Part shown: positions 613 through 21,416 of the stretch, piece by piece
Numbering within the stretch: position 1 is the stretch's first letter
Layout: each line of letters opens with the position of its first letter
From: an uncultured Halobacteriovorax sp.
GTDB taxonomy: Bacteria; Bdellovibrionota; Bacteriovoracia; Bacteriovoracales; Bacteriovoracaceae
Reading direction: 5' to 3'
Assembly (NCBI GenBank): GCA_913061265.1
Contig: CAJXVS010000005.1
Location: 281,006-345,005, forward strand
Length of the DNA stretch: 64,000 nucleotides
The notes under the pieces: model-generated
What the model was told of the DNA's origin: nothing
What the model saw: the letters and a program-made list of their open reading frames with translations, nothing else
Database searches by the model: none
Made by a program: the position numbers and the translations under genes

Positions 613-1064
613 AAATACTTGTCACCGCGATCATTTTTATCATATCCACAACCTCCCTGCATGCTTTTGAATTGAAGCATATCGATTGTAAGGTTCGTTA
701 TAATAAAACAGATGATTTTCTCAACCGCCAGGCCCACGATATCCTCAAGGATAAGGGCTATAAAGTTCAGTCTTTTGTTAATGGTAATAAGATGAATGTT
801 GGAGACCTCTACTTTAAGCTAGATTATCAAAGAGATCCGGCAAAGATGTGGAAAGACTGCGTCGTTAAAGTGGCCCTAAAAAAAGCTATTAATCAAAAAG
901 AGTATTCAAAAGACAAGACCCTCTATCAAAGATCAGTCCGCCGCGCTCTTCCTCGCCATACTTTTGGTGGTAATGAAAGATGTAAGCGTGGACTTAAGGA
1001 CGCTTTTGTTCATATTCCTAAATGTATAGGAATGACAGTGAATGAAAAAGTACAGGGTAATTAG
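609..1064 (+). CDS. Small exported protein of unknown function
   Basis: 151 residues starting with GTG inside the stop of the upstream peptidase gene. The N-terminus is a clear Sec signal peptide: Lys at position 2, a hydrophobic run of about 15 residues and an Ala-containing cleavage site near residue 19 (LHAFE). The mature part is basic and has four cysteines (in HIDCK, KDCVV, ERCKR and PKCIG), which could form two disulfides in the periplasm. I do not recognise a family. Its stop codon TAG shares bases with the stop of the convergent polyprenyl synthase gene (bases 1061-1064), so no intergenic terminator is possible. Coding status rests on the signal peptide and operon overlap. Confidence 0.75.
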   Translation: MKILVTAIIFIISTTSLHAFELKHIDCKVRYNKTDDFLNRQAHDILKDKGYKVQSFVNGNKMNVGDLYFKLDYQRDPAKMWKDCVVKVALKKAINQKEYSKDKTLYQRSVRRALPRHTFGGNERCKRGLKDAFVHIPKCIGMTVNEKVQGN

Positions 1065-2035
1065 AAGTCTCTTCTACCAATGAATCTTAAGATAAATGAG
1101 AGAGGCTTTAAGTCTTTTTCAAGTTCTTCAAAGGACTTTTCAGTCTTAACCTTCCTCGCTAATTCATGAAGGATTTCATCAGCTCTATCAAGGTTAGCAT
1201 GGGCCTGAGACTTAATTGAAGCGATGGCCTCATCTAGGCCTTCTCCAGTAAAAACATCCTTAAAGTTGGCACCATCTTTAAAGGCTTCAAGTTTAAGAGG
1301 GTTATTCTGAAGCCATTCAAAATAAACGGCAGAGATAACACCATTATCTAGATCTAGGTTGGCATCTTTTTGAGAAGTGCCGCCAAAGTCTAAAGTATCA
1401 TCCATTAACTGAAACCCGAGTCCTAAATGAACACCAAAGTCTCTAGCTAGTGAGATCACTTCGTCACTTTGCTGAGAGAGGATAGCAGGAGAGACAGCGC
1501 ACCAGCTCATCACTGAGGCTGTCTTCTTAAGGGCTATATTTCTTATGAGTTCTACTGAGTAATTTTTTTTATCAATGGCCTCTAACTGAATCCACTCACC
1601 TTCGGCGAGGTCCATGATCACTCGAGACATCTCTGATACGAGGATAGGCATATCTTGTTTGCAAAGATTCATAATAACAGAAGCTAAAAGATAGTCCCCT
1701 GCTAAAACAGCATGCTTATTAGAGCTTGCTGCATTGATTGAATCTCTGCCTCTTCTTGTCGTGGCATTATCAACAACGTCATCGTGAGCAAGAGAAGCGG
1801 CATGGACCATCTCAATACTTTGAGCGCAAGCATCTAGTTTTTCATCATCAACGCCAAAGAAACGCCCCATAAGATAAGTTAAAAGAGGTCTTAATCTCTT
1901 TCCGCCTAAGAGAACAGTTTTGCCTAAAAGCTGATTAATTTCTTCATTGCATTTTTCGTAAGGGATATCCAAGTTGATGTCTTGGGCCTTACCGAGGGCC
2001 TGTGCCGGAATTTCTTGTAAAAATGTTTCTAACAC
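1061..2035 (-). CDS. ispB: Polyprenyl (octaprenyl/heptaprenyl) diphosphate synthase
   Basis: 324 residues, the usual length of trans-isoprenyl diphosphate synthases. Both aspartate-rich motifs are present: HDDVVD near residue 90 and MDDTLDF near residue 215, as are GGKRLRP and the Lys-Thr (KKTAS) element. These bind Mg-diphosphate and catalyse successive condensation of isopentenyl diphosphate onto an allylic primer. The product is probably the all-trans side chain of menaquinone, because the gene faces away from the men operon across a 153-bp promoter region. Chain length cannot be read from the sequence with certainty, so ispB could equally be named hepT or ddsA. The neighbouring convergent gene overlaps its stop by four bases. 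Confidence 0.92.
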   Translation of the reverse strand: MLETFLQEIPAQALGKAQDINLDIPYEKCNEEINQLLGKTVLLGGKRLRPLLTYLMGRFFGVDDEKLDACAQSIEMVHAASLAHDDVVDNATTRRGRDSINAASSNKHAVLAGDYLLASVIMNLCKQDMPILVSEMSRVIMDLAEGEWIQLEAIDKKNYSVELIRNIALKKTASVMSWCAVSPAILSQQSDEVISLARDFGVHLGLGFQLMDDTLDFGGTSQKDANLDLDNGVISAVYFEWLQNNPLKLEAFKDGANFKDVFTGEGLDEAIASIKSQAHANLDRADEILHELARKVKTEKSFEELEKDLKPLSFILRFIGRRDF

Positions 2036-2188: not shown

Positions 2189-2899
2189 ATGACCACAGTA
2201 AAGAGTAGAAAACCGGAATCTTGGAAGATATTTGATGATATCGCCCCTACTTATGATTTTCTTAATCACTTCTTAAGTTTAGGCATAGATGTTCTTTGGA
2301 GAAAGAACTTTATTAGAAACTTACCTTCGAGACCAAACCTTGTCGCCTATGACCTTGCTACTGGTACTGGTGATGTTGCCTTAACTTTAGCAAAAGACCC
2401 AAAGATTAAAAAAGTTGTCGGAATGGATCTAAGCGTAGGGATGTTAGAGTTTGCAAAGACAAAGGCTGTTAAGAGAAACCTTACACATAAAGTAAGCCTC
2501 GAAGTTGGTGACGGAGTCAATATTCCTAAAGTTGATAATTCTGCTGACGTCATCACTGTCGCTTTTGGGATTAGAAATTTTCCTAACCCCCAAGAATCTT
2601 TAATAAACATGAAGAGAGTTTTAAAACCCGGTGGAAGGGCGATGATCATGGAGTTCAGCCTTCCTAAAAATATGATCATCCGCTTATGTTATCTTTTATA
2701 CTTTAGACATATTCTTCCATTTATCGGAAACGCCTTAAGCAAAAACAAAGATGCTTATACTTATTTAAATGAATCTGTAGAAGAGTTTCCTTATGGGAAG
2801 GATTTTACTGACATGATGGAAATAGCGGGGCTTAAAAACATCAGAATAGTTCCTCTAAGTTTTGGTATTGCCTCTCTTTATATTGGAGACGCTGAGTAA
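2189..2899 (+). CDS. menG: Demethylmenaquinone methyltransferase
   Basis: 236 residues, full length for the UbiE/MenG family. It shows FDDIAPTYDFLNHFLSLG at residues 15-32, the SAM-binding DLATGTGDVAL near 55, the acidic-loop motif GMDLSVGMLEFAK, and the C-terminal IRNFPNPQESL and KPGGRAMIMEFS elements. It adds the final C-methyl group to the quinone ring. As its operon partners are all menaquinone genes and no ubiquinone gene is seen, the menaquinone role (menG) is preferred over ubiE. The start ATG follows GAGGCGCACTA. menF starts 6 bp after its stop. Confidence 0.95.
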   Translation: MTTVKSRKPESWKIFDDIAPTYDFLNHFLSLGIDVLWRKNFIRNLPSRPNLVAYDLATGTGDVALTLAKDPKIKKVVGMDLSVGMLEFAKTKAVKRNLTHKVSLEVGDGVNIPKVDNSADVITVAFGIRNFPNPQESLINMKRVLKPGGRAMIMEFSLPKNMIIRLCYLLYFRHILPFIGNALSKNKDAYTYLNESVEEFPYGKDFTDMMEIAGLKNIRIVPLSFGIASLYIGDAE

Positions 2900-2905
2900 T
2901 TCATT

Positions 2906-4216
2906 ATGATTGAGTTTTACGAGTTAAAAGAACAGGTAATTACAGAAGTTAATAAATTCTTAAAAGAATTAGAGCATTCTAATGCCTCTTTTAATACCTT
3001 TGAAACTCAGATCTCTCTTAGCTCAATCAAAGACCTTATTCCTTTTCTAAAGGACGTTACAACTTGCTATTTTAAGACTCCTGCAGGGAATGAAATATTA
3101 GGTATGAAAGAGCTCGCCTTTTATAATAACGACCTTGAGCTTGATGAAATTGAAGGCCTCTTAAGTGAGAACCCTAAATTAGATTTCATGGGGGCTCTCC
3201 CCTTTAGTAACTCCTCTCCTCTTAATAAAGAATGGGAAGACTTTAAGAATCATTTCATTTTCCTCCCAAGGATTGTTCTTTTTAATGATGATAAAAAAAC
3301 CTTCCTAAGAATCAATATCTCAAAGGCAGAAAACGAAGAAGCACTCTTAAAAATGAATCTTCTTACTGAGATTGAAGATCTCTTTAGCTTTATCCATAGA
3401 GATCCTAATGATCTAGGGAATAACGAAAACTTAGATGTTCAAAACCAAGAGAACTGGACCAAGCTTATAACTGACGGTCTCTCAGAACTTGATCAAAAGG
3501 CCTTAAAAAAGGTTGTTTTGGCGAGAAGCCAGAGCGTTACTTATGAAAAAGAGATCGACGCTCATAAGCTCTTTTGCGACTTTAGATCATCTGCCAATCT
3601 CTATGAATTCTTTTATCACTCTGAGCATGGCGCCTCCTTTATCTCCTTTACCCCTGAGAAACTCTTTTCAAAACATAAAGACATCGTTGTTGTAGATTCA
3701 ATAGCAGGAACTTTAAAAGTAGAGAGTGATAACAAGGGATCAGATCTTCTTCAGTCCACAAAAGACTTAGAGGAACACAGGTTCGTTTCAAATTATATTA
3801 AAGAAAAGTTATTAGATATCACTGAAGAAGTTAGTGAGCTTTTTAAAGAAGAGATCCTCTCCTTAAAGAACCTTTATCATATCCATTCAAGGTTCAAGGC
3901 AAAACTTACTAAAAAGATAAGTAACAGGTCTCTTATAAGCACCCTTCACCCAACTCCGGCAGTTGGCGGCTATCCAAAAAAAGAAGCGCTAGAGTTTATT
4001 TCCAAGAATGAGAATCTCCAAAGAGGCTTCTATGCCGCGCCTATCGGAAGAATCTCAAGTCAATATTCAGAGTTCGCAGTAGGGATCAGGTCCATGCTAG
4101 TCGTAGATGATACTATTCATTTCTACGGAGGTGCCGGTATCGTTAAAGGCAGTATGCCTTCGAAAGAATGGATTGAGACTAGTGACAAGATCCGGAGCGT
4201 TCAATGTATGATGTAG
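2906..4216 (+). CDS. menF: Isochorismate synthase
   Basis: 436 residues with a chorismate-binding domain in the C-terminal 250 residues. Conserved family blocks are present: KKVVLARS near residue 200, STLHPTPAVGGYP near 345, RGFYAAPIG, SEFAVGIRS and GAGIVKGS followed by EW and the late Glu/Lys. It isomerises chorismate to isochorismate, the entry step to menaquinone. The N-terminal 170 residues are poorly conserved in the family, as here. Siderophore or salicylate isochorismate synthases are alternatives by family, but the menD overlap (13 bp) fixes the pathway. No strong Shine-Dalgarno is visible, so translation is probably coupled to menG. Confidence 0.94.
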   Translation: MIEFYELKEQVITEVNKFLKELEHSNASFNTFETQISLSSIKDLIPFLKDVTTCYFKTPAGNEILGMKELAFYNNDLELDEIEGLLSENPKLDFMGALPFSNSSPLNKEWEDFKNHFIFLPRIVLFNDDKKTFLRINISKAENEEALLKMNLLTEIEDLFSFIHRDPNDLGNNENLDVQNQENWTKLITDGLSELDQKALKKVVLARSQSVTYEKEIDAHKLFCDFRSSANLYEFFYHSEHGASFISFTPEKLFSKHKDIVVVDSIAGTLKVESDNKGSDLLQSTKDLEEHRFVSNYIKEKLLDITEEVSELFKEEILSLKNLYHIHSRFKAKLTKKISNRSLISTLHPTPAVGGYPKKEALEFISKNENLQRGFYAAPIGRISSQYSEFAVGIRSMLVVDDTIHFYGGAGIVKGSMPSKEWIETSDKIRSVQCMM

Positions 4217-5901
4217 AACGCTATGGGAATATCAACAGGATATGGTCCGCCTTAATTGTTGATACTTTTTTTAACAAGGGAATATTGTCCTACTTTACTT
4301 CACCCGGATTAAGAAACGCTCCCATCCTCTCTTCAATCACTCATAAAGAAAATATTAAGACCTATTCTGGAATAGATGAAAGATCCATGGGCTATAGGGC
4401 CTTAGGCTATGCCAAGGCCAGTGGAATGCCTGGGGTTTTAGTTTGTACTAGTGGCTCTGCCATGGCGAACTACTTACCTTCAGTTATAGAGGCCTATCAA
4501 AGTAATATCCCGCTTATTATTCTTTCTGCTGACCGCCCTAAGAGATTAGTTGAAGCGGGAGATAATCAATCAATTAAACAGCATAATATGTTTGGAAACT
4601 TTATCCGCGCGGAGCTCGAACTTGAAGTACCTTCAGAGTCTACAAGCCCACAAGAACTTGCCGATAAGATAAGCCGCTTTATAACAGAGCATGCTCATAA
4701 AGGTCCGGTTCATATCAATCTTCCTTTTGAAGAGCCTCTTGATCAGCGAGTAGATCAGACAAGTGATGGATATAGAAAGAATGCCGGTGAAGTTAAGTTT
4801 ACCGAATTTCTCAAAAGAAACAGCTCCGTGGTAGGCCTGCCTAATTTATCTTTAGATAAAAAGACACTCTTGGTTCTAGGTCCGACCCCAGAATTTCAAT
4901 CAGTAGAGTTACTAGCTGAGTTAGTTAAATCTAGTAATCTTCCCTGCCTAATTGATATAGGCTCAGGCCTTAAGTTCTCAAACATTGAACATCAAAGAAT
5001 CCTGCCTAGCTTCGAACATCCAGAGGTTAGTGAGCTTTTAAATCTTAATAAACCGGAACAAATCATCCACCTTGGTGGTCGGCTAGTCTCTAAGCACTAC
5101 TATAACTTTTTAAGATCTTCCCCTGAAACAGAGGTTCTTCTTGTTGGAAACGAAGACCTCTTCACTCATCCTGCCGGTTCTCCTAAATGGGAGCTAAAGA
5201 TGCCCTTAGAGGAATTCTATGAGATGGCCATTAAAACGGGTTTTCTTAATAAATTAACTCCTTATACTTTTGACTGCAAAGATATCATTGGAAAAAAAGA
5301 AGAAGTTATCGAGAAGAGTCCCTTTAGCTTTCCTATCATTTCAAAAAGAATCATCGAATTAATGCCGACTCCATCTGCCCTTTATTTAGGAAACTCCACT
5401 ACCATTAGATCTTTCGATGCTTTTGCCAGCACAAAGACTCATGATAAAAAGATAAAGGTCCTCACTCACAGAGGAGCAAGTGGAATCGAAGGCTTTAATG
5501 CCGCGGCTCTGGGCTTTGCTGAAGAATCAAATCAAAAGACCATCCTTGTTCATGGGGATATTGGGTTTATGCACGACCTAGGATCACTCCTTATGCTGTC
5601 TTCGGTTAAGACTCCTCTCATAAATATCGTCATTAATAATAAAGGTGGAGGCATCTTCGACCATCTGCCTATCTCTAAAGACGTCGACACCCTCCCTCTT
5701 ATTAAGACTGAGCATGACAGAGACTTTAAAGGCCTATGTAGTTGGTTAAATATAACTTATTATAAAGCCGAGGATATAAAAGGGTTTGAAGAAAGCTTTA
5801 AAGAGGCCATAGGTAAAGAAGAGGTATGCCTTATCGAGGCCAGCGTGGATCAATTAGAGAACCTAGCCGTTTACGAACAACTAAAGACTTTAAAACTATG
5901 A
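4204..5901 (+). CDS. menD: SEPHCHC synthase (2-succinyl-5-enolpyruvyl-6-hydroxy-3-cyclohexene-1-carboxylate synthase)
   Basis: 565 residues, the normal length for this thiamine-diphosphate enzyme. The N-terminal pyrimidine-binding domain carries GIDERSMGYRALGYAK, with the TPP-activating Glu, and VLVCTSGSAMANYLP. The C-terminal diphosphate-binding domain carries NRGA-type HRGASGIEGF, HGDIGFMHDLGS and the metal-binding INNKGGGIFDHLP. It condenses isochorismate with 2-oxoglutarate (second menaquinone step). The start overlaps menF by 13 bp and the stop overlaps menA by ATGA, so expression is coupled. Confidence 0.97.
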   Translation: MYDVERYGNINRIWSALIVDTFFNKGILSYFTSPGLRNAPILSSITHKENIKTYSGIDERSMGYRALGYAKASGMPGVLVCTSGSAMANYLPSVIEAYQSNIPLIILSADRPKRLVEAGDNQSIKQHNMFGNFIRAELELEVPSESTSPQELADKISRFITEHAHKGPVHINLPFEEPLDQRVDQTSDGYRKNAGEVKFTEFLKRNSSVVGLPNLSLDKKTLLVLGPTPEFQSVELLAELVKSSNLPCLIDIGSGLKFSNIEHQRILPSFEHPEVSELLNLNKPEQIIHLGGRLVSKHYYNFLRSSPETEVLLVGNEDLFTHPAGSPKWELKMPLEEFYEMAIKTGFLNKLTPYTFDCKDIIGKKEEVIEKSPFSFPIISKRIIELMPTPSALYLGNSTTIRSFDAFASTKTHDKKIKVLTHRGASGIEGFNAAALGFAEESNQKTILVHGDIGFMHDLGSLLMLSSVKTPLINIVINNKGGGIFDHLPISKDVDTLPLIKTEHDRDFKGLCSWLNITYYKAEDIKGFEESFKEAIGKEEVCLIEASVDQLENLAVYEQLKTLKL

Positions 5902-6779
5902 TCAGTAAACCAAAAGCCTGGCTTTTAGCCGCAAGACCCAAGACACTTCCAGCATCAATAGGCCCTGTTCTTCTCGGAACTTCCCTTGCTGCAACAGAGC
6001 AAATTAAAACAGCTCTTCCTCTCATCATCTTAACCGCACTTTGCGCCATACTCATGCAAGTAGGAACAAACTTAGTTAATGATTTCTTTGATAGTGAAAG
6101 AGGGCTCGATGGAGATAATAGAATAGGTCCGAAAAGAGCCGCTCAAATGGGATGGCTATCAAGATCAGAATTAAAAACAGGAATAATCTTAGTCTTTTTA
6201 ATGGCCTTTCTTTTAGGAATAATCCTTATGAACCATGCCGGTATGCCCATCATTATTATAGGCCTTGCTTCATTGGCCATGGCCTTCTTATATACTGGAG
6301 GACCCTTTCCTTTAAGTTATTTTGCTCTTGGAGAAATCCTGGCCCTTATCTTTTTTGGCCCAGTTCCTGTCTGGGGAACATACTTTATCATCACGAAGTC
6401 CTTTGACTGGCTCCCCGTCTTTGTTGGTTTTATTCCGGGGTTCGTTTCACTAAGCTTGATGGCCATTAATAACCTAAGAGATAATAAAAATGATAAGGAA
6501 AATAAAAAAACAACAATTGCGACAATTGTAGGCGAAGAGAAAGCCAGATACCTTGTTATCTTTGGAATCTTTATGTCTTCGATGATTCCCCTCTTTCTCT
6601 TCTTTCTCTACCATAACTATGTTTTCTTAGTGGGCGCTTTTTTATTCTTAAGAAACTATGGAACTTGGAGAAGAGTTCTTAAGGACCCCGTTAGTTCAGA
6701 GTTAAACAACACTCTTGCTACAACAGGAAAGTACCTTTTCACGCTCTGTTTTGTCATTTCTATGGGATTTTTCAAATGA
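5898..6779 (+). CDS. menA: 1,4-dihydroxy-2-naphthoate polyprenyltransferase
   Basis: 293 residues when started at the ATG inside the menD stop (ATGA). An upstream in-frame start at 5826 would add 24 residues from within menD and is rejected. It is a UbiA-superfamily integral membrane enzyme with about eight or nine hydrophobic segments. The first Asp-rich motif is NDFFDSERGLDGDNRIGP near residue 63; the second is NNLRDNKNDKENKK near residue 195. It attaches the polyprenyl chain to dihydroxynaphthoate at the inner membrane, using the product of the neighbouring polyprenyl synthase. menC again starts on an ATGA overlap. Confidence 0.95.
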   Translation: MISKPKAWLLAARPKTLPASIGPVLLGTSLAATEQIKTALPLIILTALCAILMQVGTNLVNDFFDSERGLDGDNRIGPKRAAQMGWLSRSELKTGIILVFLMAFLLGIILMNHAGMPIIIIGLASLAMAFLYTGGPFPLSYFALGEILALIFFGPVPVWGTYFIITKSFDWLPVFVGFIPGFVSLSLMAINNLRDNKNDKENKKTTIATIVGEEKARYLVIFGIFMSSMIPLFLFFLYHNYVFLVGAFLFLRNYGTWRRVLKDPVSSELNNTLATTGKYLFTLCFVISMGFFK

Positions 6780-7663
6780 ACCTGAATATCACTAAGACTG
6801 AACTTTTTAAGGTTAGATATAAATCCAAGATAAAAGTTGGGAGTGAAGTCTTTGAAGAACGAGACATCTTAAAGATACAATTCCTAGCAGATAACCAAGA
6901 GTTTAAGACAGAACTCAATTTAGTAAAAGGCTTTCACTTAACTTCCTATAGAGAGGCCTTAGACCTTTTTAAGAACCCTCAGGACTACGAGAAATGGCCT
7001 GAAGAAGTTAAATACTCATTTGAATCTGCCATCTTCCTAACTCACTACAATGATAAGCTTGCCGATAGAATTTATATAAGCCCGTACTTTGATCCCTCTC
7101 TTTCAAAGGAGGGTCCCAATCTCTCCTACACGAAAATTAAGATTGGTAGACAAGAGCTTGCCTTAGATAAGACCCTCTTAAAAAACACCAGTGCTAAAAA
7201 TATAAGACTCGATGCAAACAGATCAATGGACTTTGAAAGCTTTAAGAGTTTAACAAATGATCTATCAAGCTATGATTACTTTGAAGATCCTTTTACTAAT
7301 GCCAAACTCATGGTGAATTTCCCAAATGATCGTTTTGCTCTAGATGAATCCGTTTTAGATGATGAATTATGGAAATTAAAACAAGTCACAACCTTTGTCT
7401 TAAAGCCAAGCGCCCTGGGCCTTGGAAATACTATTGAATTGATAAAGATTGCAAAGCAACTAGGAAAACGAGTTGTGATCTCATCGACTTTCGAATCTGA
7501 AGCAGGTCATCAGACACTAGCGGCCCTAGCTGCTTATTCAGATATGGCCTTAGGTTATAAAGAGCATCATGGTCTTGGAACCATCTCTTTATTAGAAGCG
7601 CCATTGTCTCAGTGTCAAATTGAGATCAAAGACAATAGCGCTGAATTAAAATTTAAACCTTGA
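6776..7663 (+). CDS. menC: o-Succinylbenzoate synthase
   Basis: 295 residues, a short enolase-superfamily member. The KxK catalytic motif is YTKIKIG near residue 123. The metal ligands are Asp in RLDANRS, Glu in YFEDPF and Asp in FALDESV, and the second lysine is in FVLKPSALG. The enzyme dehydrates SHCHC to o-succinylbenzoate. It is the last gene of the men operon. Its 3' end overlaps the convergent nuclease gene by 18 bp. menE and menH are not next to it but are fused at 17363-19219; menB is not in the window. Confidence 0.93.
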   Translation: MNLNITKTELFKVRYKSKIKVGSEVFEERDILKIQFLADNQEFKTELNLVKGFHLTSYREALDLFKNPQDYEKWPEEVKYSFESAIFLTHYNDKLADRIYISPYFDPSLSKEGPNLSYTKIKIGRQELALDKTLLKNTSAKNIRLDANRSMDFESFKSLTNDLSSYDYFEDPFTNAKLMVNFPNDRFALDESVLDDELWKLKQVTTFVLKPSALGLGNTIELIKIAKQLGKRVVISSTFESEAGHQTLAALAAYSDMALGYKEHHGLGTISLLEAPLSQCQIEIKDNSAELKFKP

Positions 7664-15293: not shown

Positions 15294-15418
15294 GATGTGC
15301 CTCCTAGCGGGTTTCCCGGCTAATTGATGTGTGGGTTAACTCTAAGGGAAGTTATGTAGGTCAGCTTCTAACGTCAAATGAAGCTTTCTTACCATTGCTT
15401 ACTTCCTGACTAATACTT

Positions 15419-15440
15419 ACTATTAGCTAGATCTAATAGT
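15419..15440. promoter_or_regulatory. Inverted repeat between the exported-protein gene and lexA
   Basis: ACTATTAG (15419-15426), a 6-nt spacer and CTAATAGT (15433-15440) form a perfect inverted repeat of 8-bp arms. It lies 38 bp before the first TACGCAT repeat. The two-turn size fits a dimeric repressor or activator site. The regulator is unknown and it may serve either divergent gene. Confidence 0.4.
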
Positions 15441-15456
15441 CAAGAAAACTTAAACA

Positions 15457-15505
15457 TACGCATAAGTTACGCATTTAGTTCTTGACTTACGCATCGACTA
15501 CGCAT
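15457..15505 (+). promoter_or_regulatory. Four direct TACGCAT repeats, candidate LexA operator
   Basis: TACGCAT occurs at 15457-15463, 15468-15474, 15488-15494 and 15499-15505. Within each pair the start-to-start distance is 11 bp, and the pairs are 20 bp apart. The second pair fills the spacer between the -35 and -10 boxes of lexA. LexA usually represses its own gene, so this is the natural operator. The head-to-tail layout with an 11-bp period recalls the alphaproteobacterial GTTC-N7-GTTC box rather than the palindromic boxes of other groups. Confidence 0.6.
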
Positions 15506-15510
15506 TAAAT
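15482..15510 (+). promoter_or_regulatory. lexA promoter, probably giving a leaderless mRNA
   Basis: TTGACT (15482-15487) and TTAAAT (15505-15510) are separated by 17 bp. The ATG of lexA follows the -10 box after six bases, so transcription would begin at or within a base of the start codon. No Shine-Dalgarno is present. Confidence 0.55.
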
Positions 15511-15516
15511 GGGTTT

Positions 15517-16191
15517 ATGGGAATTACAAAAAAACAAAAAGAAGTTTTCGATTACATTGCTGAATATTCACTAGTGAACGGCTATGCACCTACTCAAAAA
15601 GAGATAAAGGATCATTTTGATTTTAAGTCTTTCGGGTCGGTTCAACGCTATATCAAATATCTTGCGGATGCAGGATATATTGAAACGGACTGGAATGCTC
15701 GCCGAGGAATTACATTACTAGGGGGTCTCGGTGATTCAAGTTCAGAGATTGATAACTACCCTGCAGGTTCTTCAGTTTCATCACTACATACCGTGGACAG
15801 CAATTCTATTCCTCTTTTAGGTTCGATTGCTGCTGGTAATCCTATCGAGGCGATAGAGTCAGCAAGCGATATGATTGATGTCCCTTCTTATATGATCAAG
15901 TCTCACTCCGCTCGTCACTTTGCCTTGAATATTGATGGTAACTCGATGATAGAAGATGGCATCCTCCATGGGGATATAGTCGTCTGCCGCCAGCAACAAG
16001 ATGCAAGGCGAGGAGAAACGGTAGTTGCCGTCATTGATGGTGAAGCCACACTCAAACATTACTTTCCTGTAGGACAAAGCATTGAGCTTCGCCCTGCTAA
16101 TAAAGACTACCAACCCATTGTTGTGGATAAGAACTCAGGTGACTTCTCTATAGCTGGTATCATGGTAGGGCTTCTTAGAAGTTATATCTAA
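15517..16191 (+). CDS. lexA: LexA repressor
   Basis: 224 residues, slightly longer than the usual 200-210. The winged helix-turn-helix occupies residues 1-70 (TKKQKEVFDYI, TQKEIKDHF, SVQRYIKYLADAGYI). The S24 autoprotease follows: cleavage bond Ala106-Gly107 in SIAAGNP, catalytic Ser143 in GNSMIEDG and Lys180 in EATLKHYF. It represses DNA-damage genes until RecA-stimulated self-cleavage. It heads an operon with dinB (2-bp gap) and menEH. The recognition-helix neighbourhood (KSFGSVQRYIKYL) is compatible with a diverged operator. A 20-residue Ser/Asp-rich linker precedes the cleavage site. Confidence 0.95.
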   Translation: MGITKKQKEVFDYIAEYSLVNGYAPTQKEIKDHFDFKSFGSVQRYIKYLADAGYIETDWNARRGITLLGGLGDSSSEIDNYPAGSSVSSLHTVDSNSIPLLGSIAAGNPIEAIESASDMIDVPSYMIKSHSARHFALNIDGNSMIEDGILHGDIVVCRQQQDARRGETVVAVIDGEATLKHYFPVGQSIELRPANKDYQPIVVDKNSGDFSIAGIMVGLLRSYI

Positions 16192-16193
16192 CA

Positions 16194-17366
16194 GTGGGGT
16201 TGGAAATAAAGACTCTCCAGCCCCAAACAAAACAACGAAAGATCATTCACGTAGACATGGACTGCTTTTTTGCAGCTGTGGAGATGCGTGACAATCCAGC
16301 CTTAAGAAATATACCCATCGCTATTGGAGGCTCTCCTACAGGAAGAGGAGTTCTCTCAACCTGCAACTATGAAGCAAGAAAGTTTGGACTACGCTCTGCT
16401 ATGAGTAGCGCTCAGGCCCTTAAGCTTTGCCCTCAAGTCACCTTTGTTAGAGGAAGCTTCGATAAGTACAAGAAGGCCTCAGCTCAGATGAGAGAGATCT
16501 TCGAGCGCTTTACAGACTTAGTGGAACCCTTAAGCTTAGATGAAGCTTACCTCGATGTGACAGACTGCGAGCTCTTTAGGGGTTCTGCTACCTTAATCGC
16601 GCAAGAGATAAGGCGTCTTATAAAGGCAGAGATAAACCTGACAGCGAGCGCTGGCGTCGGGCCTAATAAGTTTATAGCCAAAGTCGCAAGCGACTGGAGA
16701 AAGCCTGATGGGCTTTTTGTTGTCACTCCTGATGAGGCCTTTAATTTTGCACAGGCCCTTCCTGTTAGGAAATTTCCAGGAGTTGGTAAAGTCACTGAGG
16801 CAAAGCTTCATGACCTTGGTGTTAAGACAGGGCTAGATATTAGCCGGCATGAACTCTTGATAAACCAATGCTTTGGTAAGTCTGCTAAAGGCCTTATTAG
16901 AAGATCTAAAGGGATCTGCTTTAATAGTGTTTGCACTCATCACGAAAGAAAGAGCTTAAGTTGTGAAAGGACCTTTCGTAGTGATCTTGAAACTTTTCAG
17001 GAATTAAAAGACCAGATTCCCCTCCTCTTAGACGAGGCCGTCCATAGGGTCATGGCCTGGAAAGAGAAGAAGGGTCCTGAAACCCTACCCTATAATATGT
17101 TTGTAAAGGTTAAGTCCTCTGATTTTACTCAGGTCACTCAAGAGAAGAGCTTTCCTTTTGAGTTTTTTGACGAGGTGTGGCAAAAGGGTGAAGTTTCTAC
17201 AATTTTATTAGATGAACTTACCAAGCTTTTAGAAATGGCGTATTCAAAAGGACTAAACACCGTAAGGCTTATTGGAATGGGATTTAAATTTAAATCTCCC
17301 TTCCGCACTCATGAAGATGAGTTAATGAGGCCTTATCAACTAGAACTTTTTAAGGAAGCTGTTTGA
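16194..17366 (+). CDS. dinB: DNA polymerase IV, Y family
   Basis: 390 residues. The Y-family catalytic residues are in HVDMDCFFAAVE (near residue 22) and SLDEAYLDVT (near residue 115); the helix-hairpin-helix KFPGVGKVTEAKL follows, then the little-finger domain. The C-terminus holds a sliding-clamp binding motif, QLELF, six residues from the end region. It performs error-prone lesion bypass. The start is GTG two bases after lexA and lacks a Shine-Dalgarno, so it is probably translated by coupling to lexA and induced with it. The stop overlaps the TTG start of menEH (TTGA). Confidence 0.95.
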   Translation: MGLEIKTLQPQTKQRKIIHVDMDCFFAAVEMRDNPALRNIPIAIGGSPTGRGVLSTCNYEARKFGLRSAMSSAQALKLCPQVTFVRGSFDKYKKASAQMREIFERFTDLVEPLSLDEAYLDVTDCELFRGSATLIAQEIRRLIKAEINLTASAGVGPNKFIAKVASDWRKPDGLFVVTPDEAFNFAQALPVRKFPGVGKVTEAKLHDLGVKTGLDISRHELLINQCFGKSAKGLIRRSKGICFNSVCTHHERKSLSCERTFRSDLETFQELKDQIPLLLDEAVHRVMAWKEKKGPETLPYNMFVKVKSSDFTQVTQEKSFPFEFFDEVWQKGEVSTILLDELTKLLEMAYSKGLNTVRLIGMGFKFKSPFRTHEDELMRPYQLELFKEAV

Positions 17367-19219
17367 AGCAAATCATTGAATGCCCAACACTAAAACAAAT
17401 AGTCGAAGCTTTTCACTCTGAAGAGACGGTCTTCCTTTGCCCAAAATTAAGCAAAAATGAAAAAGAATATTACAGCACCATCTTTAAGCAGTTTGCTCCT
17501 AAAGGAAGTGTTTGCTTCTTAAGCAGTGGCTCTAGTGGCAATCCAAGGATTCACGCTCATTCATGGGTTAACCTAAAGAAGAGGGCCTGTGCTCAAGCCA
17601 TTGAATTAGGACTTGATAAAGATTCAGTTTATTTGAACCCACTTCCCCTTTATCACTTAGGCGGCTTTATGCCTGTGCTTCGCTCATTATTGAGTGAAAG
17701 CTCGCAGGTTATTAAATCAAAAGATCACTCGTTAGAAGAAGCCTTGTTAAAACTAAAGCCTACTCACGTAAGCATGGTTCCAACTCAGTTGGCTCAACTA
17801 GTTTTAAACAGAGTAGAGCTCGGCTTCTTAGATACCATCCTTCTTGGCGGAGCAGGTTGCTCTGAATCTATTTTAGAGGAAGCTAAAGATCTTGCTTACC
17901 CTATCAGGGCCTGTTACGGGATGACTGAAAGTGCCAGTTTTTTCTCGATCGGTAAAAAAGAAGAGTTCTTAAAGGACGCTAAAGTTAATCTTTACCTAAT
18001 GGATAATTGGAGCGCTTTTACTAGCTCTAATGGCAGGCTCACTATCGAATCTGATGAGATGTATCTAGGATCAATTGGGCCCCTAGGGTTTATTGAATCC
18101 AAGGGAATACTTCCGACCTTTGACTTAGGCGAAGTAGAAGCTCCTATTATTAAAATCTTTGGTAGATCAGACCTTGTTTATAAAAGTGGTGGAGAAAAGG
18201 TTGATCCTCTAGAGATAGAAAGAAAACTAGAATCAACAGAGCTCTTTTCAAATATCGTTATTATCCCTAAGAAAAGCGAAGTCTGGGGGAATATAACAAC
18301 AGCTTTTGTGAGCCCTTTCAAAAGAGGTCGTGACTACTCACTTTTAACAGAGCACTTACCTCCTCATCAGAGGCCGAAGTTCTTTTTCCCTATGCCTGAG
18401 AGCACGGGGATAAAACCTAAAAGAAGTGAATTAAAAGAAATAGTTGAAAGACAAATTCATCAAGATAAGAAACTTCCGCGCATGGCCTTTATCCATGGGT
18501 TTATGGGGAGCTCTAATGACCTAAAAGAACTCGGCTCTTCGTTGAGTGAGTTATGCTGTCCTGTGTTTTGGAAGCTTCCCTTTCATGGAGAGAATAAGAC
18601 ACCCATTGATTTCAATGAAACGGTTGAGTTCTATATAGAAAAAATAAGAAGCGAAGACATTGATGCTCTTTATGGCTATTCGATGGGTGGCCGTTTAGCG
18701 ACTGCAATTGCTGAAAGGCTTGAGTCACTCGGAGAACCTCTTACGGCCCTCGTTCTCGAATCTAGTCATCCTGGTTTAAAGACTAAAGAAGAAAAACAAA
18801 AACGAATCACAGAGGATCAAACTCTTTTTGGAAGAATGCCAACTGAACCTCAGGCCTTTTTTGAAAAATGGTACTCTGCTCCTCTTTTTGGAGATTTTAA
18901 AGATACTGACCTTGGAAAGATCTCCATCAAAGAGATGCAAAGACGTTGGAACCCTAGCGAGTGGAAAAAAACCCTAGATTTATTATCAACGGGAAAACAA
19001 AAGAACTTTCAAGAGTATCTCCTTAACTCAATCACACCTATTCTCTATCTTTGTGGAGAACAAGACTTAAAATATAAAAGCCTAGCTCTTCAGTTAAAAA
19101 ATCAAGGGCCAAGATCGCTTAAGGTTAAATGCTTAGAAAAAGGCTTTCATAACCTCCACCTGAACAACCTAGACCAGGTGAAACAACCTGTAGAAGAGCT
19201 TCTAAGTTCTTTAAATTAG
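17363..19219 (+). CDS. menEH: MenE-MenH fusion: o-succinylbenzoate-CoA ligase and SHCHC synthase
   Basis: 618 residues. Residues 1 to about 370 are a short adenylate-forming ligase lacking the usual N-terminal 60-100 residues: phosphate loop SSGSSGNPR near 54, YGMTESASF, DLGEVEAP, IFGRSDLVYKSGGEKVDP, and the late Lys in GIKPKRSEL. From Met374 on, an alpha/beta hydrolase of MenH type follows: FIHGFMGSSND, nucleophile GYSMGGRLA, ESSHPGL, CGEQDLKY and His in GFHNLHL. The first half activates o-succinylbenzoate with CoA; the second removes pyruvate from SEPHCHC. The TTG start lies in the dinB stop, so it is read from the lexA operon, 10 kb from the rest of the men genes. Confidence 0.88.
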   Translation: MKQIIECPTLKQIVEAFHSEETVFLCPKLSKNEKEYYSTIFKQFAPKGSVCFLSSGSSGNPRIHAHSWVNLKKRACAQAIELGLDKDSVYLNPLPLYHLGGFMPVLRSLLSESSQVIKSKDHSLEEALLKLKPTHVSMVPTQLAQLVLNRVELGFLDTILLGGAGCSESILEEAKDLAYPIRACYGMTESASFFSIGKKEEFLKDAKVNLYLMDNWSAFTSSNGRLTIESDEMYLGSIGPLGFIESKGILPTFDLGEVEAPIIKIFGRSDLVYKSGGEKVDPLEIERKLESTELFSNIVIIPKKSEVWGNITTAFVSPFKRGRDYSLLTEHLPPHQRPKFFFPMPESTGIKPKRSELKEIVERQIHQDKKLPRMAFIHGFMGSSNDLKELGSSLSELCCPVFWKLPFHGENKTPIDFNETVEFYIEKIRSEDIDALYGYSMGGRLATAIAERLESLGEPLTALVLESSHPGLKTKEEKQKRITEDQTLFGRMPTEPQAFFEKWYSAPLFGDFKDTDLGKISIKEMQRRWNPSEWKKTLDLLSTGKQKNFQEYLLNSITPILYLCGEQDLKYKSLALQLKNQGPRSLKVKCLEKGFHNLHLNNLDQVKQPVEELLSSLN

Positions 19220-19348
19220 GGTCTGCCTCTAAATAAAGGCGCCTGTTTTAACAACGCTAATATTGCTTAAATGCCAATTTACTCCATAAATTCATAGACT
19301 TAAACACCACTCCATAAAAAAGTATTAGGCTCAGGTATGACCCCCTTA

Positions 19349-19423
19349 TATAATAATAAGGAGATAAGTTAATTATGACGAAGAGAGAGAATAACTTTTC
19401 ATTAATTTTGGAGCGTCTATGAA
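19349..19423 (+). promoter_or_regulatory. -10 box and possible 15-codon leader ORF before the 665-residue protein gene
   Basis: TATAAT lies at 19349-19354 with only a weak -35 (TTAGGC, 18 bp upstream). An ATG at 19375 opens a 15-codon frame ending TGA at 19420-19422, which overlaps the ATG of the next gene as ATGA. AAGGAG (19358-19363) is 11 bases before this ATG. The leader would encode a peptide beginning MTKREN and ending LILERL and may couple translation. The Shine-Dalgarno of the large gene (GGAG) lies inside it. The rest of 19220-19348 shows nothing. Confidence 0.35.
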
Positions 19424-21416
19424 GGCCTTAAGATTTTTAACCATTCTTTTAACTACTTTTAGTTTGTACACGGTACAGACCATGGTGACCCAACCAGCTT
19501 TTGCTTCATCAGATGAAGAACAAGGTTTTTTTAGTGGTGGAGCTGGAGCTAATGTTTCGGTTTCTGGAGAAGAAAAGAGCGCGGACGAGAAAAAAGGCAT
19601 GAATTTAAATATGATTGTCCTTTTATCTGCCGTGTTAACGGCTCCTATGTTTGCCTTATCTTGTAATGATCGAATAGATACTTGGATTTATATGGCAACT
19701 GCTGTGGTTTATGTAGGGATGGAGATTGCGAACTGGAATACTTATAAAGCCCAGTCAAAACGTGAAATGCGGGCCAAAAGGTCTGCTGAAGAGGAGAAAA
19801 ATGAAGAGCAAAAGAGATCTTTAGAGAAGGCATCAAGAACAACTAAGGCCGCTGCGGATGCTGCCGGTAGAAGGGCTAAAGCCGCAAATATCGCCAAAAT
19901 GGGCTTTATGGCAGCAGGTGCAATAGCTCTAGTTATGTCTATTTGGCATGCAGTTCCAGCTTGTATTACGGCTGGTGGTGAATGCGATATGTATATGTGT
20001 AAAAATGGTTTAGCCAGCAATGACTCATTAGAGGATATGTACCTAGGACCTGACGAAGAGTTTAATGCTATTGCTAACGTGGATTACAACCGCGTAGAGC
20101 AGTACATGGAAAATGCAGGTAACGATCAAGACTTTTTAATTAGAAATGTCGAATTAGATAGAGTTAAAAAAGGTGCTGTAACCTCTATTGATATTGAAAG
20201 CGCGTCAATTCTTCAAGAAACTTTTCCTGAAACTAAGAAAGAGAATATGTTTGTAACGGCCTTTAAGGCAATTGGTTATAACATCGCCGACTTATTACTT
20301 CCAAAAGCTGAAGCAAATGGTGCTAAAATAGCAGCTTTAGGGATTGGCGCAGTAGGTGCTGCCCTAATCGGTACGAAAGTTATTGCATTAAGCCCAACTC
20401 TTAAAACAGTTACTAAAAATGGTTTCGTAAGAGCAGCTTTTCATTTAGTAATGGGGGGAATGGCGGGAAAAGTCGCCGGTGATGCTCAAGAAGCAGCTAA
20501 TATGTTAAATGGAAGAGCTGCTCAGTATGATGAACTGGCCATGAAGCTTGATATAAACGCCGAAACAAATATTAATCATGTGACAGATATAAATACTGAT
20601 ATAGATGTTGGAGCAACTGGTCTAACTGCTATTGATAAAGGAAATGTAGAAGGACGAACATGTTTTACCGGTAGTAAAGGACAGTTAAACGAAGATAAAA
20701 ATTGTGCTTGTAAAGATGCTAAAAACTGTAAAAGAAGTGAAATTCCAAAAATTTCTAGCATGTCTCAAATTGCTATTCCTAGCGCTATTACCACTTCAAC
20801 TGAGGCTTTAGGAGTAGCTGGTAATGCTCTTTTTAATGGAGAACTAGGAGGAGCGCTTAGCCAGTCAAACGCTGCTGGAAAAAATGCGGCAAGACTTAGA
20901 AAGTTAAATATTGGATTGCAGAAAAAGGCCAACGAGGGTTTTATTGCTCATGGTAAAAAAGCAATCGACTTTGATAGACTCCTTGCTTCTTCAAGAAGAA
21001 AATTAATTAAAGCAGCAATGAGCGATATCAAAAACTTAAATTCTAACGGTAAGGCTGTCTTGGCCGAAAGGTTTCCCGGAGTCTTCGGAGATGGAAGCGA
21101 TGTTGAGAAGAATCCAAATACTGATATAAAAATTGGTGATACAAATGTTAAAACAGGGGCCTCAGTAGCTGCCAAAGGCTCTGCAGGGTCTAAGAAGAAA
21201 GACCCAATGGCAGGCTTCGCTTTTGATATTGAAGATTCAGAAGATGTGAAGGAAGCCGAAGCCACTAATCCAGTTGCCACTTTAGGAGCGGGAGATGATC
21301 AGGTTGAACTTGATAAAGAAGATATCGCTGGAGATAGGAATAAGAACATCTTTAGCCTTATTACAAAAAGGTATTTTAAAACTGCTTATCCTAGGTTCTT
21401 TGAGACCAGGGAATAA
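19419..21416 (+). CDS. Large exported membrane protein of unknown function
   Basis: 665 residues with a signal peptide cleaved near residue 30 (QPAFASS). Hydrophobic segments follow near residues 62-80, 90-105, 165-187 and 305-325. Between the second and third is a Lys/Arg/Glu/Ala-rich coiled-coil region (about 110-160). The centre has a small cysteine cluster (NCACKDAKNC near 430), and the C-terminal 150 residues are hydrophilic and acidic. I do not recognise any family. GGAG five bases before ATG supports the start. It is followed immediately by a strong terminator, and it has its own promoter region, so it is probably a single-gene unit. Lineage-specific function is likely but unproven. 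Confidence 0.75.
   Translation: MKALRFLTILLTTFSLYTVQTMVTQPAFASSDEEQGFFSGGAGANVSVSGEEKSADEKKGMNLNMIVLLSAVLTAPMFALSCNDRIDTWIYMATAVVYVGMEIANWNTYKAQSKREMRAKRSAEEEKNEEQKRSLEKASRTTKAAADAAGRRAKAANIAKMGFMAAGAIALVMSIWHAVPACITAGGECDMYMCKNGLASNDSLEDMYLGPDEEFNAIANVDYNRVEQYMENAGNDQDFLIRNVELDRVKKGAVTSIDIESASILQETFPETKKENMFVTAFKAIGYNIADLLLPKAEANGAKIAALGIGAVGAALIGTKVIALSPTLKTVTKNGFVRAAFHLVMGGMAGKVAGDAQEAANMLNGRAAQYDELAMKLDINAETNINHVTDINTDIDVGATGLTAIDKGNVEGRTCFTGSKGQLNEDKNCACKDAKNCKRSEIPKISSMSQIAIPSAITTSTEALGVAGNALFNGELGGALSQSNAAGKNAARLRKLNIGLQKKANEGFIAHGKKAIDFDRLLASSRRKLIKAAMSDIKNLNSNGKAVLAERFPGVFGDGSDVEKNPNTDIKIGDTNVKTGASVAAKGSAGSKKKDPMAGFAFDIEDSEDVKEAEATNPVATLGAGDDQVELDKEDIAGDRNKNIFSLITKRYFKTAYPRFFETRE

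Follow-up and report, generated by a model that had tools for sequence, protein, structure and literature searches.

In an uncultured Halobacteriovorax species (family Bacteriovoracaceae, phylum Bdellovibrionota), two enzymes of menaquinone synthesis, MenE and MenH, are encoded by one fused gene, menEH, which directly follows the SOS-type genes lexA and dinB within the 64,000-nt stretch of DNA analyzed here (contig CAJXVS010000005.1 of assembly GCA_913061265.1, positions 281,006 to 345,005; hereafter the window). The arrangement is best explained, and probably so, by menE and menH having been captured by the LexA-repressed promoter of lexA, behind a lexA or lexA-dinB unit inserted into a men operon, so that they rise with the SOS response. 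Adjacency of lexA and menE recurs in 19 genera of the family, and the promoter of lexA bears a conserved direct repeat of the kind also found before recA; from these features, co-transcription of menEH with lexA and its response to DNA damage are judged probable.

The run and its operator

lexA, dinB and menEH form one tight run. An earlier note, made from the letters of the window, had described a MenE–MenH fusion as the third gene of this run, which holds: a single frame of 618 codons (17363–19219) gives profile matches to both enzymes. Its TTG start was likewise read correctly as lying inside the dinB stop, with whose TGA it shares two bases; near the junction no other in-frame ATG, GTG or TTG occurs until 90 nt past that stop, which holds alike for this genome and the two congeners compared (G001 and G002; three of three). 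The same note had named a frameshift as what would turn the two halves into separate genes. However, the frame is unbroken in both congeners, at 64% identity, and 33 of the 45 genomes in which lexA and menE are linked (see below) have one unbroken frame as well, by which a frameshift or sequencing artefact is rejected as the source of the fusion. A chance arrangement is rejected too, on the lone start and the unbroken frame in the three genomes of the genus.

The product of the first gene has the marks of a LexA repressor, that is, its score with the NCBIfam lexA model (TIGR00498; 170.5 bits against a curated cut-off of 110.95), an N-terminal winged helix-turn-helix followed by an S24 peptidase domain (PF01726 and PF00717, both over cut-off), and four residues invariant in 15 aligned sequences, of which A106 and G107 are taken to be the cleavage site and S143 and K180 the Ser/Lys pair. 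DinB matches the model of DNA polymerase IV (Pol IV) with 431.7 bits, over its cut-off.

Upstream of lexA, at the −35 hexamer, lies a direct repeat, TTGACTTACGC-N5-TTACGC or a near form, common to all of the first 15 genomes inspected. The wider survey drew on the 129 genomes of the family, 113 of which are matched by the LexA profile; 75 lexA loci, the window included, were read, the remainder being 23 of the 26 genomes of one genus (g24) and a further 15 that were fragmentary, lay at contig edges or were not sampled. In 72 of the 75, TACG-N7-TACG stands in the 130 nt that precede lexA, and a spacer of 7 was seen 95 times at these loci, against 3 for spacers of 4–6 and 8–10 taken together. 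The pattern tried initially, TACGCATN4TACGCAT, was too specific (115 occurrences with three mismatches, and 115 for its control), and the relatives' half-site was used thereafter: the 129 genomes contain 172 copies of TTACGCN5TTACGC and 10 of the reversed control, which together with the excess of spacer 7 rejects a chance origin. Of the sites, 150 were listed: recA follows 47 of them, lexA directly follows 40, 12 neighbour another S24 gene and 51 are unassigned. With at most one mismatch the box precedes recA at 27 of 30 loci (G080, G074 and G016 being the misses), in this genome as TTGCGC-N5-TTACGC; with at most two it precedes lexA in all 45 linked genomes. The run that ends in menEH is thus headed by an operator of the recA kind, to which LexA is predicted to bind. 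Scanned with up to two mismatches, the window holds two boxes, both before lexA, and none before the men cluster at 2189; for this reason that men operon stands outside this operator and menEH behind it.

Where TTGAC is present in the last 60 nt before lexA (54 of the 75 loci surveyed), it starts 34–35 nt before the ATG in 45, and because of this position the lexA mRNA may be leaderless.

Linkage of lexA and menE in the family

That relatives be surveyed for the same fusion and neighbourhood had already been proposed; in the survey, lexA or lexA-dinB is followed directly on the same strand by menE in 45 of the 75 family genomes read, from 19 genera, with 22 not linked and 8 loci whose contigs end too early for a judgement. 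The 45 comprise 29 genomes with lexA-dinB-menEH fused, 4 with lexA-dinB-menE-menH, 2 with lexA-dinB-menE, 4 with lexA-menE-menH, 4 with lexA-menEH fused and 2 with lexA-menE. In 39 of them no more than 25 nt separate the upstream stop codon from the first start in frame; the genes overlap in 22, and the median distance is 0. These distances are lower bounds, as the true start may lie further inside. On the LexA tree the linkage needs 4 changes (mean of 18.7 when shuffled; none of 500 shuffles as low), the presence of dinB 7 and the fused or split state 6, and the unlinked genomes mostly make up one clade of 19 rows (Shimodaira–Hasegawa-like approximate likelihood ratio support 98). Outside the family, 27 lexA loci of the phylum were read, of which 8 offered less than 1.5 kb downstream, and menE stands behind lexA at none; among 80 named loci lexA-dinB-menEH was found in one only (L109), which belongs to the family.

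These data shift the emphasis, which in the earlier note lay on the fusion. MenE and MenH are neighbours in relatives, and switching between the fused and the split state is evolutionarily cheap; the fusion amounts to a minor variation, and the linkage to lexA is the informative part. Such switching also gives no support to the fusion as a substrate channel. The regulatory link which that note had inferred gains from the conserved run in 19 genera and from the operator on the lexA promoter, while damage induction itself stays a prediction.

Several genomes point to how the arrangement may have come about. Two (G008 and G139) have the order menD-menA-menC-lexA-menE-menH and a third (G109) menD-menA-menC-lexA-dinB followed by the contig end, while two others (G027, locus L077, and G030, locus L075) have menC-menE-menH with no lexA between, G030 carrying its lexA on another contig. 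When the upstream side was viewed in 27 genomes, men genes stood directly before lexA in 3, one (mostly divergent) gene away in 6 and several genes, about 5–15 kb, away in 6 (the window, at 7.9 kb, included); in 12 they were not found, two of these offering only 5–9 kb to view. Most simply, this is accounted for by lexA, alone or together with dinB, having been inserted once between menC and menE, after which the 5′ part drifted; the direction of the change is itself inferred. As a sequence of events, a men operon would have received lexA, or in most lineages lexA-dinB, between its menC and menE genes, together with the promoter of lexA and the LexA operator on it (TACG-N7-TACG over the −35); the 5′ men genes would have been left separate and have drifted off in most genera; and menE and menH, which overlap or abut, would have fused repeatedly, the fusion in the window being one such case. 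All three genomes with lexA behind menC hold a second full-length lexA (G008:C21, G139:C7 and G109:C70), which fits a duplicated lexA as the copy that entered the men operon.

Left with almost no intergenic room, menE and menH would be transcribed from the lexA promoter, and both enzymes would be made at the basal level of this autoregulated promoter; after DNA damage they would rise together with LexA and Pol IV, and MenF, MenD, MenA and MenC would not. Being equipped with a regulated promoter of its own, lexA could separate from menC; menE and menH, which depended on upstream sequence, could not easily be detached from lexA. The asymmetry that is seen, with the adjacency of lexA and menE kept and the link to menC lost, is the one predicted by transcription from the lexA promoter.

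A number of observations weigh against this reading. The region is broadly syntenic, other neighbours (a divergent gene ahead of lexA, the gene that follows menEH, and enolase) being frequently retained as well, for which reason adjacency alone is weak evidence for co-regulation; general synteny, which also keeps neighbours together, weakens the argument from asymmetry as well. Six of the 45 gaps exceed 25 nt, with an outlier of 873 nt in G104. The backbone of the tree is weak (36 of 72 inner branches are open), and four genomes (G018, G023, G030 and G089) lack the link though placed among linked ones. As for the origin, G027 is without any LexA match, so that it may just as well have lost lexA as preserve an ancestral state. 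Finally, the scores of both enzyme halves lie below curated cut-offs.

Somewhat better than even is the chance that the linkage is a hostage situation without further meaning, in which the lexA promoter is needed for the basal expression of menEH only, SOS induction occurs but has no selected role, and the linkage persists since breakage would strand two needed genes without a promoter. This is a version of the same architecture, and its probability overlaps with that of capture by the lexA promoter. It would suit the finding that the operator precedes menE and menH only and that no box is seen at the other men genes of the window, which could leave pathway flux as a whole unaltered; promoter dependence alone likewise predicts that the menE link is kept while that to menC is lost. 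Harder to square with it is the persistence over 19 genera, between which dinB was gained or lost in 7 changes and which offered many chances to regain a separate promoter, whereas outside the main unlinked clade only 4 assessable genomes are without the link.

An internal promoter in dinB or lexA that drives menEH constitutively, the operon layout being positional only, is considered unlikely. lexA-dinB could contain a promoter invisible to consensus scans, and the 873-nt gap of G104 would leave room for such a reading, but 39 of the 45 linked genomes have abutting or overlapping genes, and 10 of the 45 lack dinB, so that a conserved promoter inside dinB cannot serve all. A consensus scan returned no plus-strand promoter in 15300–19450, a weak argument because it missed the lexA promoter as well and so cannot exclude an internal one. 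A reading that goes further than capture, namely that the coupling was selected lineage-wide, LexA cleavage raising MenE and MenH (the steps that activate o-succinylbenzoate (OSB) and form 2-succinyl-6-hydroxy-2,4-cyclohexadiene-1-carboxylate (SHCHC)) so that the menaquinone pool of damaged cells is rebuilt or remodelled, is doubtful.

The enzyme halves and the rest of the pathway

The MenE-like part of the fusion (residues 50–347) scores 136–138 bits with TIGR01923 (E 1e-39), under the curated cut-off of 330, and the MenH-like part (residues 373–614) 164–167 bits with TIGR03695 (E 3e-48), under that of 208.6; the boundary at residue 365 was chosen by the author from the alignment. The MenE parts of four relatives are likewise under the TIGR01923 cut-off (204–267 bits), and a search of the whole genome with this model gave no match over it. 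For MenH, the fusion is by far the best match of the genome, the next best reaching 56 bits in the whole-genome profile search. In 14 aligned fused proteins S55, G56, D254 and R268 of the ligase show no variation, and K351 is shared by at least 90%; aligned to chains of 2-succinylbenzoate–CoA ligase, S55 and G56 presumably belong to the P-loop, D254 and R268 are taken to be the conserved Asp and Arg, and K351 the C-terminal GIK lysine of an adenylate-forming OSB-CoA ligase. S440, R444, D568 and H596 of the hydrolase are invariant in the same 14 proteins, S440, D568 and H596 presumably forming the Ser-Asp-His triad of MenH and S440 and R444 lying, as is assumed, within GYSxGGR. The residues expected of both enzymes are thus in place, and the fusion would be predicted to work like MenE and like MenH; the best solved matches by sequence are chains deposited as 2-succinylbenzoate–CoA ligase and as SHCHC synthase.

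The N-terminal part of MenE (17363–17510) is markedly shorter in the genus of the window than in most fused proteins of other genera, and the alignment with E. coli MenE begins at residue 140 of the latter.

Very improbable is the proposal that the ligase half is another acyl-CoA ligase and MenH alone acts in the menaquinone pathway: its short N-terminal part, its score below cut-off (138 bits) and the higher score of another ligase on the menE model (277 bits; G000:C5:351608–352951) would favour this, but the other ligase ranks best as FadD (383 bits) inside a cluster of ketoacyl-synthase, FabG and hydrolase genes and is likelier FadD than the true MenE, while for the fusion the best ligase models are menE models, the closest solved ligase was deposited as 2-succinylbenzoate–CoA ligase, homologues of the ligase half come after menC in relatives, and a MenE model of 362 aa with a short N-terminus is on record (NF005877).

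The earlier note had placed the other men genes 10 kb away in one tight operon. This applies to menG, menF, menD, menA and menC, whose cluster ends 7.9 kb short of lexA and 9.7 kb short of menEH; it does not apply to menB, the sole match over the menB cut-off being on another contig (G000:C2:556187–557017). A thioesterase of the 4HBT type (PF13279; 27583–28008), whose gene is kept syntenic with murI and enolase in the neighbourhood of menEH, is a candidate 1,4-dihydroxy-2-naphthoyl-CoA thioesterase.

Table 1. Features of the lexA-dinB-menEH region and of the men cluster (window coordinates)
Feature	Position	Strand	Basis and remarks
Polyprenyl synthase, divergent, beside the men cluster	1061–2035		
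Rest of the men cluster: menG, menF, menD, menA, menC	2189–7663	+	menG, isochorismate synthase, menD and menA over a cut-off; menC below
LexA-type operator, upper copy, ATACGC-N5-TTACGC direct repeat	15456–15474	+	One mismatch to TTACGCN5TTACGC; same place in both congeners
−35-like TTGACT of the lexA promoter	15482–15487	+	Read from the sequence; not flagged by the consensus scan
LexA-type operator, lower copy, TTACGC-N5-CTACGC, overlapping the −35	15487–15505	+	Box scan
−10-like TTAAAT of the lexA promoter	15505–15510	+	Read from the sequence
lexA	15517–16191	+	224 aa; Ala-Gly cleavage site, Ser/Lys pair; TIGR00498 over cut-off
dinB, DNA polymerase IV	16194–17366	+	Profile matches
MenE half of the fusion (o-succinylbenzoate–CoA ligase-like; N-terminal part short)	17363–18457	+	Profiles, alignment
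MenH half of the fusion (SHCHC synthase-like; S440, D568, H596 invariant in 14 proteins)	18458–19219	+	Profiles, alignment
Terminator-like hairpin with T-rich tail directly 3′ of menEH (weak)	19224–19251	+	Count in the region not clearly above shuffles

LexA-type boxes elsewhere and related systems

TTACGC-N5-TTACGC or a near form also precedes lexA in other families of the phylum (L351–L353, L355, L357, L358 and L362), and this LexA box is for that reason wider than the family; still other families have TGTACGA- or TTACA-type repeats before lexA, and some have none. TTACGC-like half-sites stand before lexA in two MAGs (metagenome-assembled genomes) of Acidobacteria (L111 and L112) too. One family (f6; loci L363–L366, genomes G170, G186, G041 and G213) shows TTAC-N7-TTAC running into TTAC-N3-GTAA, as does a MAG of the Bdellovibrionaceae (L123). 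For Bdellovibrio bacteriovorus the LexA box is reported as a palindrome, TTAC-N3-GTAA, and for Alphaproteobacteria as GTTC-N7-GTTC (PMC8565304 and PMC3323433); 17 LexA-box motifs are reported in PMC8565304 and tied to duplication of lexA. The composite operators would join the palindrome of B. bacteriovorus to the direct repeat. With the B. bacteriovorus box the window's family shares the half-site TTAC, but it has a conserved direct repeat instead of a palindrome, both forms being carried by the f6 genomes; with the alphaproteobacterial box it shares the direct repeat, the 11-bp period and the N7 geometry, whereas the half-site is TTACGC/TACG and not GTTC, and the phylum is another.

Three further sites with boxes were seen in this genome. 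The box at one (L100:1501–1620; G000:C4:81684) is perfect, and all three genomes of the genus (also L270 and L271) show conserved sequence following it; at L100 no gene of at least 80 aa starts close behind the box on that strand, and the conserved sequence is a possible candidate for an SOS-controlled small RNA or short peptide. At L092:5400–5455 (G000:C6:129402–129452) two boxes stand 32 bp apart on the minus strand, resembling the doubling before lexA, and by eye a short open reading frame seems to begin about 30 nt behind them on the same strand. The third (L101:1450–1540; G000:C1:421531) is ahead of a 207-aa protein that is ImuA-like by eye only; with no NCBIfam match at 1e-8 and no Pfam match at 0.01, its naming as ImuA was rejected.

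Like LexA-regulated lexA-dinB (SOS) operons, the run in the window has lexA with its own operator and then dinB, and a box before recA too; it differs in running on into two menaquinone enzymes and in its TACG-N7-TACG direct repeat. In ordinary men operons menE and menH are likewise adjacent at the cluster end, as in L077, but no lexA stands between menC and menE. Fusion of men-pathway enzymes in one chain is also known from the plant protein PHYLLO (MenF-MenD-MenC-MenH; PMC6189191), which covers early steps, lacks MenE and has unrelated regulation; no MenE–MenH fusion is given in the available part of PMC4746308. Among the matches listed in searches of open-licence literature there was nothing on a lexA-men linkage or a LexA box in Bacteriovoracaceae, nor on LexA in Bacteriovorax, Bacteriovoracaceae or Bdellovibrionota.

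The arrangement looks like operon capture with several of its stages still visible: a metabolic operon would have been split by a stress regulator, and its tail would have come under the regulator's promoter and stayed so across 19 genera. For the Bacteriovoracaceae a candidate LexA operator is thereby at hand, which shares its half-site with the Bdellovibrio palindrome and resembles the alphaproteobacterial direct repeat in geometry, and for a culturable relative the prediction is that menEH, and not menFDAC, would rise with the SOS response.

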